From positions 1 to 64,000 of the forward strand of contig NZ_JABBGG010000011.1 of the NCBI RefSeq assembly GCF_012927275.1: a stretch of DNA of 64,000 nucleotides. Direction: 5' to 3'. Shown piece by piece: positions 24,561-60,806 of the stretch; positions within the stretch are counted from its first letter, which is position 1, and the number at the start of each line of letters is the position of its first letter. A program made the translations under genes and the position numbers. This DNA comes from Massilia polaris. Lineage in GTDB: Bacteria > Pseudomonadota > Gammaproteobacteria > Burkholderiales > Burkholderiaceae_D. The notes below the pieces were generated by a model. That model was not told the origin of the DNA and did no database searches. It saw only the letters and a list, made by a program, of their open reading frames with translations.

Positions 24561-25583
24561 TTAGAAGTAGCTGAGACCCAGCGCGGCGCGCACTTCGTCA
24601 GCCGTGCGTGCAGCCACTTCCCGCGCCTTCATCGTGCCATCCTTCAGCACCTGCATCACATAGCCCCTGTCCTGCGCCAGCAGTTCGCGGCGCTCGCGGA
24701 TCGGCGCCAGCATTTCCTGCAGCACCACTTCCAGCCTCTTCTTGACGATGCTGTCGCCCAGCCCGCCGCGAACGTAGTGCGCCTTCATCTCTTCCAGCGC
24801 CGCCTTCTCGGTGTCGAACGCGTCGAGGTACATGAACGCCACGTTGCCTTCCAGGTGACCCGGGTCCTGCACGCGCAAGTGCAGCGGGTCGGTGTAGACC
24901 TGCTTGACCGCCGCGCGGATTTCGTCCGGCGTCGCGCCCAGGTTGATCGTATTGCCCAGCGACTTGCTCATCTTGGCCTTGCCGTCGATGCCAGGCAGGC
25001 GGCCGATCTCGGGCACCAGCGCCTTCGCCTCGACCAGGATCGCGCAGTTGTACATGCGGTTGAACTTGCGCACGATCTCGTTGGTCTGCTCGATCATCGG
25101 GATCTGGTCTTCGCCCACCGGCACCAGGCTGGCCTTGAACGCGGTGATGTCGGCAGCCTGGCTGGCCGGATAGGTGAGGAAGCCGGCCGGGATGTCGCGC
25201 TCGAAGCCGCGCTGGCGGATTTCCTCTTTGACGGTCGGGTTGCGCTCCAGCCGTGCGACGGTCACCAGATTCAAATAATAGAATGTCAGTTCTGCCAACT
25301 CTGGGATCTGGGACTGAATCAGGATCGTCGTCAGTGCGGGGTCGATGCCGACCGCCATATAGTCGAGCGCAACTTCAACCACGTTGCGGTGGACTTTGCC
25401 GATGTCGTCCATGTTGTCGGTCAACGCCTGGGCGTCAGCCAGCATCACGAATTGCTGATAGCTATGCTGATAGGCAACGCGGTTGCGCAGGCTGCCCACA
25501 AAGTGGCCAAGGTGCAGCGGACCTGTCGGGCGATCGCCCGTCAGGATGACCGGAAGGTTGGGTGTCTGGTTCGGCGTTGTCAT
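24561..25583 (-). CDS. trpS: Tryptophanyl-tRNA synthetase
   Basis: A 340-residue class I synthetase. The HIGH-type motif is [13 protein letters not shown] near residue 18, and the second signature is [12 protein letters not shown] in mid-protein. It charges tRNA-Trp. Start ATG 25583 with GAGG upstream; a longer frame to 25637 crosses the terminator hairpin and is rejected. Immediately upstream on the same strand lie an intrinsic terminator and a tiny ORF with tandem Trp codons, so expression is probably controlled by transcription attenuation responding to charged tRNA-Trp. Confidence 0.97.
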
Positions 25584-25624
25584 CGTAAATCCTCTGGATT
25601 GCCCCGATGCTGCCGCGCCAACAA

Positions 25625-25651
25625 AAACGCCGCCCAATCGAGGCGGCGTTT
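25625..25651 (-). terminator. Attenuator terminator in the trpS leader
   Basis: A 10-bp GC-rich stem (AAACGCCGCC at the right end, GGCGGCGTTT at the left, read on the minus strand) with a 7-nt loop, followed by TTTTTG. It ends 41 bp before the trpS start. No minus-strand gene lies upstream that it could serve, which supports an attenuator role. Its 5' arm can pair alternatively with GCGGCCGTT (25673-25681). Confidence 0.85.
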
Positions 25652-25687
25652 AAAAGCATCACATTGCTGTGGAACGGCCGCGCGCTG

Positions 25688-25738
25688 TCAGCGGCGCCAC
25701 CAGATTACGCTAGCAAATTGTGAGCGGAATAAATTCAT
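25688..25738 (-). CDS. trpS leader peptide with tandem Trp codons
   Basis: A 16-codon ORF on the minus strand, MNLFRSQFASVIWWRR then TGA. Two adjacent TGG codons lie at 25697-25702, four codons before the end. The coding end (GCCGC) can pair with GCGGC just downstream, a segment that can instead pair with the 5' arm of the terminator. This is the layout of a Trp attenuator. No Shine-Dalgarno is evident; the likely promoter would start transcription at or next to the ATG, so it may be a leaderless ORF, as known for trpL of Sinorhizobium meliloti. Confidence 0.75.
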   Translation of the reverse strand: MNLFRSQFASVIWWRR

Positions 25739-25744
25739 GCCAGC

Positions 25745-25773
25745 ATCGTTACAGAGTAGCCGCCTTCTGTCAA
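25745..25773 (-). promoter_or_regulatory. Candidate promoter for the trpS leader
   Basis: On the minus strand, a perfect -35 TTGACA (25768-25773) and, after 17 nt, a poor -10 AACGAT (25745-25750). Transcription would begin near 25738, at the first base of the leader ORF. The weak -10 makes this tentative. Confidence 0.4.
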
Positions 25774-25898
25774 GAACAGAACACCGATACCATTAATGCG
25801 AACTTTCGCGTTTTGCATGGCATCTAATTTATAAGTTTCCCACGAAAAATAAGGCGCCTGTGGCGCGGAAACTTCCGAATAACCAACCGGTTGAATTC

Positions 25899-28142
25899 AT
25901 GAATAACATTAACAGGCTTGAACCAAGCGCGCCGCTCGAACTGTGGGGCGGCCTCGAATGCACAGTCAACCGCGTCCACGACGATTATCACAGCCAGATG
26001 GACCGCAACGGCCATGTTCACCGGCTCGACGACATTTCCCAATTCGCAGCGCTCGGTATCCGGGCGATCCGCTACCCGATCCTGTGGGAACGCACCGCAC
26101 CCGGCGGCATCGCCGGCGCCGACTGGGAATGGCCGGACGAGCGCCTGCCGGCCCTGCGCGCGGCGGGCATCACGCCGATCGTCGGCCTGGTGCACCACGG
26201 CAGCGGTCCGCGCCACACCAGCCTGGTCGACCCGGCCTTCGCGCCGCAACTGGCGAAGTACGCCGGCGCAGTTGCCGCACGCTACCCCTGGGTCGAGTAC
26301 TACACGCCCGTCAACGAACCGCTGACCACCGCCCGCTTCTCCGGCCTCTACGGCCTGTGGTACCCGCATGGCCGCGACGACCTGACCTTCCTGAAAGCCC
26401 TGCTGGTGCAGTGCCGCGCCGTGGTCCTGTCGATGCAGGAAATCCGCAAGCACAATCCCGACGCCAGGCTGGTGCAGACCGACGACCTCGGAAAAACCTA
26501 CAGCACCCGCGAAATGGCCGATGCGGCCGCGTTCTACAACGAACGGCGCTGGCTGGGCTGGGACCTGCTGTGCGGCATGGTCGGCCCCGAGCACGCGCTG
26601 TGGAACTACCTGGTCCAGAGCGGCATCGAGCCGAACGACATCCTGTGGTTCCGCGACAATCCCTGCCCGCCCGACATCATCGGCGTCAATTACTACGTCA
26701 CCAGCGAGCGCTGGCTCGACCACCGTCCTGAGCGCTATCCGGAACATCATCGCGGCAACATCGGCGGCGTACCGTGCGCCGACATCGAATGCGCGCGCGT
26801 GCTGGCGACGCCCACGGCCGGCATCGGCCCCTTGCTGCAGGAGGCGTGGGACCGCTACCGGATCCCGCTGGCGGTCACCGAAGCGCACATCGACGCCAAC
26901 CGCGAAGACCAGTTGCGCTGGCTGCTGGAAATCTGGGAAGCCGGCAAACAGGCTCAGCTCAACGGCGTGGACATCCGCGCGATCACCGTCTGGGCGCTGC
27001 TCGGCTCGTTCGACTGGAACAGCCTCGTTACCCGCGACCAGGGCTATTACGAGCCGGGGCCGTTCGACCTGCGTTCGCCCGAACCGCGTCCGACCGCGCT
27101 GGCGCGCATGATGCGCGAACTGGCCGATGAGAAACCGCTGTCGCATCCGGTCCTGCGCGGACAGGGATGGTGGCGCCGTTCCAGCCGTTTCTCGTGCCAG
27201 CCGGTGGCGACGCCGCTGGCGCTGACCTCGATATCGGCCGATGGCCACCGGCTGGTCGGCAAGCAAGCGCGGCCGATCCTGATCACCGGCGCGACCGGCA
27301 CCCTGGGGCGTGCCTTCGCCCGCCTGTGCCGCGAGCGCAGCCTGGCCTACCAGCTGCTCAGCCGTCATGAGATGGACATCGCCGACCCGGATTCGGTCGA
27401 ACGCGCGATGGCGCGCTGCAAGCCGTGGGCCGTGGTGAACGCGTCCGGCTATGTGCGCGTCGATGATGCCGAGAACGATGTCGAGCGTTGCTTCCGCGAA
27501 AACGCGCACGGCCCGGCAGTGCTGGCCGCCGCCTGCGCACGGCATGGCGTGCACCTGACCACGTTTTCAAGCGACCTCGTATTCGACGGACGGCGGAATG
27601 ATCCCTACGTCGAGAGCGATACGGTGTCGCCGATCAATATCTACGGCAAGAGCAAGGTCGAGGCGGAAACCTCGGTACTGGAGCGGCATCCGGGATCGCT
27701 GGTGGTACGCACCAGTTCGTTCTTCGGTCCGTGGGACCAGCATAACTTCGTCACCCAGGCGCTGGCAGCGCTGGGCGGCGGCGGATCGTTCCAGGCGGCG
27801 AGCGACATTATCGTGTCGCCGACCTATGTGCCCGACCTGGTGAACACCTGCCTCGATTTGATGATCGACCGGGAATGCGGCGTGTGGCACCTGACCAACG
27901 GGCATCCGATTACCTGGGTCGAGCTGGCCAACAAGGCGGCCGGGCTGGCGGGCGTGGATGCGAGCCGCCTTGAAGGCTTGTCGATCGCCTATATCGCGCC
28001 GCGGCCGCTCTACACCGCGCTGCATAGCGAACGCGCGATGTTGTTGCCGAGTCTGGATGATGCGCTCGGACGGTTCCTCCATCAGCGCGGCGAGCCGATG
28101 CAGGATGAGGCGGCGTGTTATCCGGAGCCGGTGGCGCGGTGA
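25899..28142 (+). CDS. GH1-like glycosidase fused to RmlD-like sugar-nucleotide reductase
   Basis: A 747-residue two-domain protein. Residues 10-420 are glycoside hydrolase family 1-like, with LWGGLECTVNRV at the start, the acid/base motif TPVNEP (Asn139-Glu140) and a possible nucleophile in VTEAHID. Residues 460-745 are an RmlD-type reductase with the Rossmann loop TGATGTLG near 464 and the SDR catalytic YGKSK near 580. Such fusions are found in several betaproteobacteria; they may modify and cleave sugars in polysaccharide metabolism, but the substrate is unknown. The start is uncertain: ATG 25899 (weak site) or GTG 25860 (AAGG upstream). Divergent from trpS. Confidence 0.85.
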   Translation: MNNINRLEPSAPLELWGGLECTVNRVHDDYHSQMDRNGHVHRLDDISQFAALGIRAIRYPILWERTAPGGIAGADWEWPDERLPALRAAGITPIVGLVHHGSGPRHTSLVDPAFAPQLAKYAGAVAARYPWVEYYTPVNEPLTTARFSGLYGLWYPHGRDDLTFLKALLVQCRAVVLSMQEIRKHNPDARLVQTDDLGKTYSTREMADAAAFYNERRWLGWDLLCGMVGPEHALWNYLVQSGIEPNDILWFRDNPCPPDIIGVNYYVTSERWLDHRPERYPEHHRGNIGGVPCADIECARVLATPTAGIGPLLQEAWDRYRIPLAVTEAHIDANREDQLRWLLEIWEAGKQAQLNGVDIRAITVWALLGSFDWNSLVTRDQGYYEPGPFDLRSPEPRPTALARMMRELADEKPLSHPVLRGQGWWRRSSRFSCQPVATPLALTSISADGHRLVGKQARPILITGATGTLGRAFARLCRERSLAYQLLSRHEMDIADPDSVERAMARCKPWAVVNASGYVRVDDAENDVERCFRENAHGPAVLAAACARHGVHLTTFSSDLVFDGRRNDPYVESDTVSPINIYGKSKVEAETSVLERHPGSLVVRTSSFFGPWDQHNFVTQALAALGGGGSFQAASDIIVSPTYVPDLVNTCLDLMIDRECGVWHLTNGHPITWVELANKAAGLAGVDASRLEGLSIAYIAPRPLYTALHSERAMLLPSLDDALGRFLHQRGEPMQDEAACYPEPVAR

Positions 28143-60674: not shown

Positions 60675-60776
60675 GAAAAAAGTATGTCTGGTATCTGGAA
60701 ATACAATTGGACGTATATGTGGCGACGCAACATAATCTCACCTGTCTCCACTATTCTCCTCCAAGAAAATAGTTTT

Positions 60777-60806
60777 AAGCCCGCTTTCATCAGCGGGCTT
60801 TTTTTT
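60777..60806 (+). terminator. Strong intrinsic terminator
   Basis: AAGCCCGCT pairs with AGCGGGCTT (60777-60785 with 60792-60800), loop of 6, then eight T. It follows the OhrR-like gene by about 100 bp. Confidence 0.95.

Follow-up and report, generated by a model that had tools for sequence, protein, structure and literature searches.

In Bacillus subtilis, stalling at the Trp codons of the rtpA (anti-TRAP) leader peptide acts on the translation of the next gene; rtpA is a different gene from trpS, and this control is combined with a T-box. For trpS itself, candidate attenuators have been predicted upstream of the gene in Streptomyces (PMC1262725), S. lividans is reported to have a leaderless trpS leader that contains the residues LWR (PMC8079986), and an auxiliary tryptophanyl-tRNA synthetase (TrpRS) gene under ribosome-mediated transcriptional attenuation is, by its title, the subject of Vecchione and Sello 2010 (cited in PMC4787780). 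Ribosome profiling has revealed a leader coding sequence before trpS in Caulobacter crescentus (PMC4117421), and in Sinorhizobium meliloti the trpL RNA (rnTrpL) starts at the leader ATG, translation of the Trp codons controlling the terminator of trpE(G) (PMC7298713). The passages retrieved from PMC2965389 contain no mention of trpS. Here we describe a leader upstream of trpS in a 64-kb stretch of Massilia polaris DNA (the window), and read it, with a probability of almost nine in ten, as a ribosome-mediated Trp attenuator that controls an auxiliary, TrpRS-II-type trpS gene.

The leader locus and its gene

An earlier note on this DNA had pointed out a 16-codon minus-strand ORF with adjacent TGG codons, alternative hairpins with a terminator behind it, GCGGCCGTT at 25681-25673 and a TTGACA hexamer, all of which are present in the sequence where it had placed them (Table 1). 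Read on the minus strand, the leader peptide is M N L F R S Q F A S V I W W R R stop. The -35 hexamer is followed by a 17-nt spacer, the extended -10 and six bases before the leader ATG; the -10 agrees at 3 of 6 positions, which we counted against the attenuator reading. The terminator hairpin, AAACGCCGCC-TCGATTG-GGCGGCGTTT (25651-25625), is followed by five T (25627-25623), and the trpS ATG at 25583 does lie 41 bp past it, as previously indicated. A generic promoter and terminator scan of the window listed neither the terminator nor the promoter of the leader. The sole minus-strand terminator-like site of that scan (25866-25854, with a T-rich tail) lies upstream of the leader promoter.

Table 1. 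Coordinates of the trpS leader and its parts in the window.
Feature	Position	Strand	Basis
TTGACA, -35 hexamer	25768..25773	-	Read from sequence; kept in relatives 35-37 nt before the leader ATG
Extended -10, TGT AACGAT (TGCAACCAT in most family relatives)	25745..25753	-	Read from sequence and relatives
Leader ORF, MNLFRSQFASVIWWRR and stop, 16 codons, probably leaderless	25688..25738	-	ORF reading, mini-ORF scan, relatives
Tandem Trp codons TGG TGG, putative sensor	25697..25702	-	Sequence; modelled antiterminator peaks, on a broad plateau, when they occupy the A site
Segment 1 (TGGTGGCGCCGC)	25691..25702	-	Fold; 1:2 swap test
Segment 2 (GCGCGCGGCCGTT), partner of 1 or 3	25673..25685	-	Fold, swap tests, stall modelling
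Segment 3, 5' arm of the terminator; partner of 2, 4 or 5	25642..25651	-	Swap tests
Segment 4 and U-tract of the intrinsic terminator	25623..25634	-	3:4 swap test
Segment 5 (CATCGGGGC)	25601..25609	-	Covariation over loci; weak in the window alone
Segment 6, CGATG including the trpS start codon; could pair with CATCG of segment 5	25581..25585	-	Sequence reading
AGAGGA, Shine-Dalgarno-like, of trpS	25590..25595	-	Sequence reading
trpS, TrpRS-II-like tryptophan--tRNA ligase, 340 aa	24561..25583	-	TIGR00233; PDB match

The trpS protein scores over the TIGR00233 cut-off (226.5 versus 176.75 bits). Its best PDB matches, 1yi8 (E 3.5e-116) and 2a4m (E 6.6e-114, deposited as tryptophanyl-tRNA synthetase II), are proteins that we take to be from Deinococcus; the next ones are 2g36 (E 1.2e-67) and 1i6k (E 8.7e-38). 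By these PDB sequence matches the protein is closer to TrpRS II of the Deinococcus radiodurans type than to standard TrpRS. The genome also encodes a second TrpRS of 400 aa, over the PRK12283 cut-off, which is the housekeeping enzyme, and the attenuated trpS is therefore an auxiliary enzyme here. Elsewhere, TrpRS II and TrpRS1 have been reported to work with nitric oxide synthase and in indolmycin resistance (PMC9437257). Among the best 80 of 354, the nearest named relatives are Massilia soli (98% identity), M. agrisoli (97%) and M. cavernae (95%).

A Trp-rich leader, MFFTKKHHVTQAGSIEAWLWRRWQSWAK and stop (L150, 3141-3055, minus strand), also precedes trpE in the same genome, the trpE product scoring over the TIGR00564 cut-off. 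It is located in the gap after a HAD-phosphatase gene and accompanied by a terminator-like hairpin and T run, as read by eye. Elsewhere in the window, positions 60743-60806 (plus strand) match the Betaproteobacteria toxic small RNA (Rfam RF02278) with 53.5 bits against a gathering score of 50.

Conservation of the leader in relatives

At E up to 1e-60, 278 of the 392 family genomes have a trpS homologue, and at E up to 1e-75 so do 57 of 399 genomes of the order. The 95 loci that we read out of the 278 family genomes were mostly the best-scoring among the matches listed, so that several genera were left unread. We applied a strict rule consisting of a Trp-containing ORF of 9-45 aa, a -35 agreeing at at least 5 of 6 positions 34-37 nt before its ATG, and a terminator score of at least 12. 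By this rule a Trp leader is present in 71 of 80 named loci (the best 80 of 354), 53 of them with WW: in Massilia (19/19), Janthinobacterium (16/16), Duganella (13/13), Pseudoduganella (10/10), Rugamonas (8/8), Telluria (1/1) and others (4/5); in the same best 80 it is absent from Collimonas (0/7), Glaciimonas (0/1) and one MAG. WW occurs in 2 of the 13 Duganella and 5 of the 8 Rugamonas loci, many of the former and some of the latter having a single Trp codon. We counted the absent leaders and the single codons against the attenuator reading. Further genomes, a set overlapping the named loci, gave leaders in 4/4 loci of g1, 74/78 of g6, g14, g18 and g40 together and 27/35 other loci of the order, and none by the strict rule in g28 (Collimonas, 0/9), g32 (0/3), f25 (0/3) and f41 (0/10). 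Five more of these other loci of the order carry a WW leader and fail the strict rule (L107, L110, L114, L125, L128). Altogether, nine families of the order have loci with a leader (f1, f5, f21, f27, f31, f32, f37, f42, f51).

The leader peptides themselves are very different (MKAIQSHPSSLSWWRR, MTTKPATAAFFFSWWRL, MNSRNAFASFTWWWRLF, MNQNRFAFYGFYWWRPA), with the Trp codons mostly near the end. The distance from the -35 to the ATG is 35 nt in 42, 36 nt in 45 and 37 nt in one of the 88 loci passing a 33-38 nt filter. Within the set of 107 leaders modelled below (32-39 nt scanned), 103 have a -35 of at least 5/6, at 35, 36 or 37 nt in 41, 51 and 11 cases, and four (L107, L110, L114, L125) are without one. 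Since this spacing is conserved, we infer a transcription start at or beside the leader ATG, and thus a leaderless leader mRNA. That the Trp codons, the spacing and the stems are kept while the peptides otherwise differ supports the initial reading of this region as a Trp attenuator.

Beyond the order, a search of the class added one other genome in 369, and one of the phylum gave 25 of 398, some of them already known (both E up to 1e-95). From these came 18 loci that belong to other orders and classes of the phylum: a WW mini-ORF stands ahead of trpS in 15 of them (L234, L235, L237-L249), L233 has a single-W ORF, and L232 and L250 are without a Trp mini-ORF. Only 2 of 12 loci pass the strict rule there, so that a leaderless start is not established for them. 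Several of these WW-leader loci are without a U-tract, judged by eye.

Alternative pairings and the modelled ribosome stall

We exchanged segments between loci and asked whether native partners pair better (swap test; 25 hand-picked representatives, with the kinship among loci left in place). For the terminator (3:4), as posited in the earlier note, none of 20,000 permutations was as good as the native combination, and for 1:2 three were. The 1:2 pairing is confirmed in this way, with the refinement that segment 1, according to the fold, is wider than the GCCGC first given and takes in part of the Trp codons. The leader, its promoter spacing, the terminator and 1:2 are borne out by sequence and covariation. 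For the antiterminator (2:3) the swap test was not significant (1344/20000; 291/20000 in 10 representatives, a subset picked afterwards); an initial run had given 1689/5000, before segments were shortened and the terminators of L128 and L131 corrected. This test is insensitive because a GGCGGC:GCCGCC core is common to the loci. Both 1:2 and 2:3 beat shuffled segments in 25/25 representatives (mean z -1.7 and -1.8, some near zero; -1.9 and -0.5 in the window). Judged by covariation, 2:3 is the weakest link, for which the signal across loci is weak. Of what the earlier note proposed to look for in relatives, conserved Trp codons and compensatory stem changes, the codons are there and 3:4 and 1:2 covary, but compensatory change in 2:3 is weak.

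To model stalling, we folded nascent RNA that stops short of segment 4 and kept the ribosome footprint unpaired, assuming it to reach 12 nt from the start of the A-site codon. The 107 leaders modelled come from within the order (95 with WW, 12 with one W); omitted were loci without a leader ORF, those with a degraded or mis-detected terminator or ORF (L096, L148, L076, L048, L085) and the duplicates L093-L095. With no ribosome on the RNA, 2:3 had a mean probability of 0.12 (0.05 in the window). This rose to 0.29 (window 0.50) when the ribosome sat at the stop codon and to 0.70 (window 0.82) when the first Trp codon occupied the A site, the stall giving a higher value than the stop in 106 of the 107. 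A probability above 0.5 was reached by all 107 stalled leaders, but also by 21 leaders at the stop and by 13 that had no ribosome. When the stall was moved codon by codon, the mean peaked at the Trp codons (0.703 and 0.691), with 0.30 four codons before and 0.42 four after; in the window the plateau is broad (0.77-0.82 from -3 to +3, 0.09 at -4, 0.07 at +5). The mean dropped to 0.42 once the stretch from the ribosome to segment 3 was shuffled, the native value being higher in 105/107. Modelling thus shows that a stall at the Trp codons favours the antiterminator, and the 2:3 pairing of the earlier note stands on this count, its covariation being weak.

In the mechanism that we propose, the transcript would begin at or beside the leader ATG, and translation would initiate on this leaderless mRNA. 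With ample charged tRNA-Trp, the ribosome would reach the stop codon and mask segment 2, 3:4 would form and transcription would end. If charged tRNA-Trp were scarce, through Trp starvation or failure of the housekeeping TrpRS, the ribosome would stall at WW and mask segment 1, segment 2 would hold segment 3, and RNA polymerase would read into trpS. The leader would, in this manner, respond to tRNA charging.

Natural variants

We classed 80 family loci by the PRK12283-type TrpRS of their genomes into 50 dual (including G139, with its copy in pieces, and G203, with two overlapping pieces) and 30 sole. The 30 sole genomes have one TIGR00233-passing match each (G349 being 82% complete), and 29 of them keep the Trp leader ORF. 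Among those of g18 (Massilia or Telluria), 19/20 keep both the leader and the tail (5-9 T in ten), and the hairpin of the remaining one (L148) is degraded. Among those of g6 (the Janthinobacterium group), 6/7 keep the WW leader and the hairpin and have lost the U-tract, with 1-3 T in the ten positions after the hairpin versus 4-7 in the four dual genomes of the group, a comparison that rests on few independent events. These six are L014, L018, L023, L033, L091 and L092; the seventh, G349, has kept the T run and has no Trp codon. Collimonas has two synthetases and no leader. Since sole genomes keep the leader and two-synthetase Collimonas is without it, we rejected the idea that the attenuator marks an auxiliary rather than a sole synthetase.

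Individual loci depart from this layout in other ways. In G139 (L076), whose housekeeping TrpRS appears in pieces, we did not find the terminator hairpin that usually precedes the TrpRS-II gene. The leader is missing from L054, where the promoter adjoins the hairpin before trpS and a second TrpRS is present. The genome G422, of another family, has a TrpRS-II copy without a leader (L098, 81% identical to that of the window), possibly acquired by transfer, as well as its own TrpRS-II copy with a WW leader (L123).

A fifth segment beside the trpS ribosome-binding site

Segment 3 and the loop pair with a further segment, 5, whose 3' end lies at a median of 18 nt (13-33) before the trpS ATG (43 loci). 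Over 47 loci, native 3:5 duplexes were at -21.6 kcal/mol versus -16.5 for swapped ones (0/20000; 41/20000 in the 16 family loci and 4/20000 in the 10 loci outside the order), and over the 43 loci with a mapped trpS start at -21.3 versus -16.0 kcal/mol (0/20000). The pairing was first spotted by eye in some loci tested later, and these two tests are therefore not blind. A test of 62 distinct family loci, which brought in added ones, gave -17.3 versus -16.1 kcal/mol (0/20000), and 3:5 beats a shuffled segment in 46/47 loci. It is weak in the window (z -0.6), where the best duplex found is another one; by homology, we would read it as ATCGGGGC (25608-25601) with GCCTCGAT (25644-25637) of arm 3 and the loop.

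Segment 5 also pairs with the ribosome-binding site (5:6) better in native than in swapped combinations of the 43 loci (0/20000), against 5415/20000 for a control of segment 3 with the ribosome-binding site; examples are CGTTCTCC with GGAGAACG in L109 and TATCTCC with GGAGATA in L244. Within the family 5:6 was not significant (1269/20000; controls 576 and 2130/20000), the control of segment 3 with the ribosome-binding site being itself borderline there. The 43-locus test was run without L045, L114, L115 and L131 (no start by rule) and includes L127, whose start is probably wrong; the family test was run without L022, L048, L076, L085 and L148, without L045, L058, L070, L074, L083, L088 and L089 (no start), and without six duplicates. 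The null control of the 43-locus test and the separate repeats argue against relatedness as the cause of the covariation.

The 3:5 covariation suggests a translational layer, in either direction: segment 3 and the loop would additionally pair with segment 5 beside the ribosome-binding site, coupling translational control to the same stall. In one model, 3:4 would free segment 5 to shut the ribosome-binding site with segment 6, and the stall would hand segment 3 from 2 to 5, opening the site; in the other, 3:5 itself would block the site and 2:3 release it. The element might even be mainly translational, with 3:5 and 5:6 as the switch and termination secondary. We consider this unlikely, although 3:5 covaries about as strongly as the terminator, and U-tracts are missing from the six Janthinobacterium-group genomes with leader and hairpin and from several WW-leader loci outside the order; the T-rich tail is there in the window and in most of the 80 family loci, and 5:6 fades within the family. 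Moreover, equilibrium folding of the 43 loci, in which the translational layer did not show, gave no difference in opening of the ribosome-binding site between stall and stop (Shine-Dalgarno p 0.55, AUG p 0.16) and favoured neither of the two models.

Much less probable still is a plain terminator or barrier before trpS beside which the WW ORF is incidental. Relatives with promoter and terminator and no Trp leader (L022, L054, L101-L103) fit such a view, but a terminator of this kind would have no gene to serve. The upstream ORF at 25860-28142 is on the plus strand (glycosyl hydrolase 1 and RmlD domains over the Pfam cut-offs), and the 576-aa minus-strand ORF overlapping it (25824-27554) has no Pfam family match and looks like its shadow; with no real minus-strand gene upstream, none needs this terminator, as had been surmised. 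A plain terminator also leaves aside that Trp codons, spacing and 1:2 are kept while leader residues vary, and that the window holds a single such WW ORF. Of its seven ATG mini-ORFs of 9-45 aa with WW, on both strands, the leader ORF alone has a terminator score of at least 18 (22.9, versus at most 11.9 in the others) and, along with it, a -35 that agrees at 5 or more of 6 positions 34-37 nt before its ATG. A different Trp sensor, a T-box or another RNA family, can practically be dismissed, since the leader gave no Rfam match at or above a gathering score and nothing counted in favour of such a sensor. Weak matches there to RNAI and anti-hemB fell below their gathering scores and were set aside.

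Returning to the attenuator, we tentatively suggest, with somewhat less than even confidence, that arm 3 acts as a hub common to the antiterminator, the terminator and a helix at the ribosome-binding site. One Trp stall would set both transcription and translation of the TrpRS-II gene, the design would go with the gene across the phylum, and in lineages without a second TrpRS it would be retained, as in the Massilia group, or have its terminator disarmed, as in the Janthinobacterium group.

Comparison with known systems

The earlier note had missed the TrpRS-II type, the housekeeping TrpRS alongside and the covarying segment near the ribosome-binding site. It knew of no description of trpS control by attenuation in this lineage, which agrees with the literature matches listed (mostly outside subscription papers), where neither trpS attenuation in the order nor a fifth segment appears, but it overlooked the Streptomyces descriptions (PMC1262725, PMC8079986). 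The present locus carries Trp attenuation of trpS beyond Streptomyces, to an element that recurs before TrpRS-II genes of proteobacteria. Natural variants of this element, with a single Trp codon, with the U-tract or the leader lost, or with the synthetase as the sole or the second one, can be compared directly. Its covarying segment 5 would join control of transcription and translation in one leader, and a leaderless leader peptide kept over several families would be a convenient system for leaderless initiation.

With S. meliloti trpL this leader shares the RNA start at the leader ATG, as inferred here, and Trp codons that govern a terminator, whereas the target there is trpE(G) and here a synthetase. 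As in Caulobacter crescentus, a small leader ORF precedes trpS in a proteobacterium, but the available account of that leader does not give sequence, structures or mechanism. Like those of Streptomyces, leaderless in S. lividans, it places a Trp leader peptide before trpS; unlike them, it belongs to another phylum, and in the accessible descriptions S. lividans trpL2 has one Trp codon and no uridine-rich stretch is reported, nor do the leaders described there have a further segment near the ribosome-binding site. Attenuation of trpS is thus known from Streptomyces, and the fifth segment covarying with the terminator arm is what is new here.
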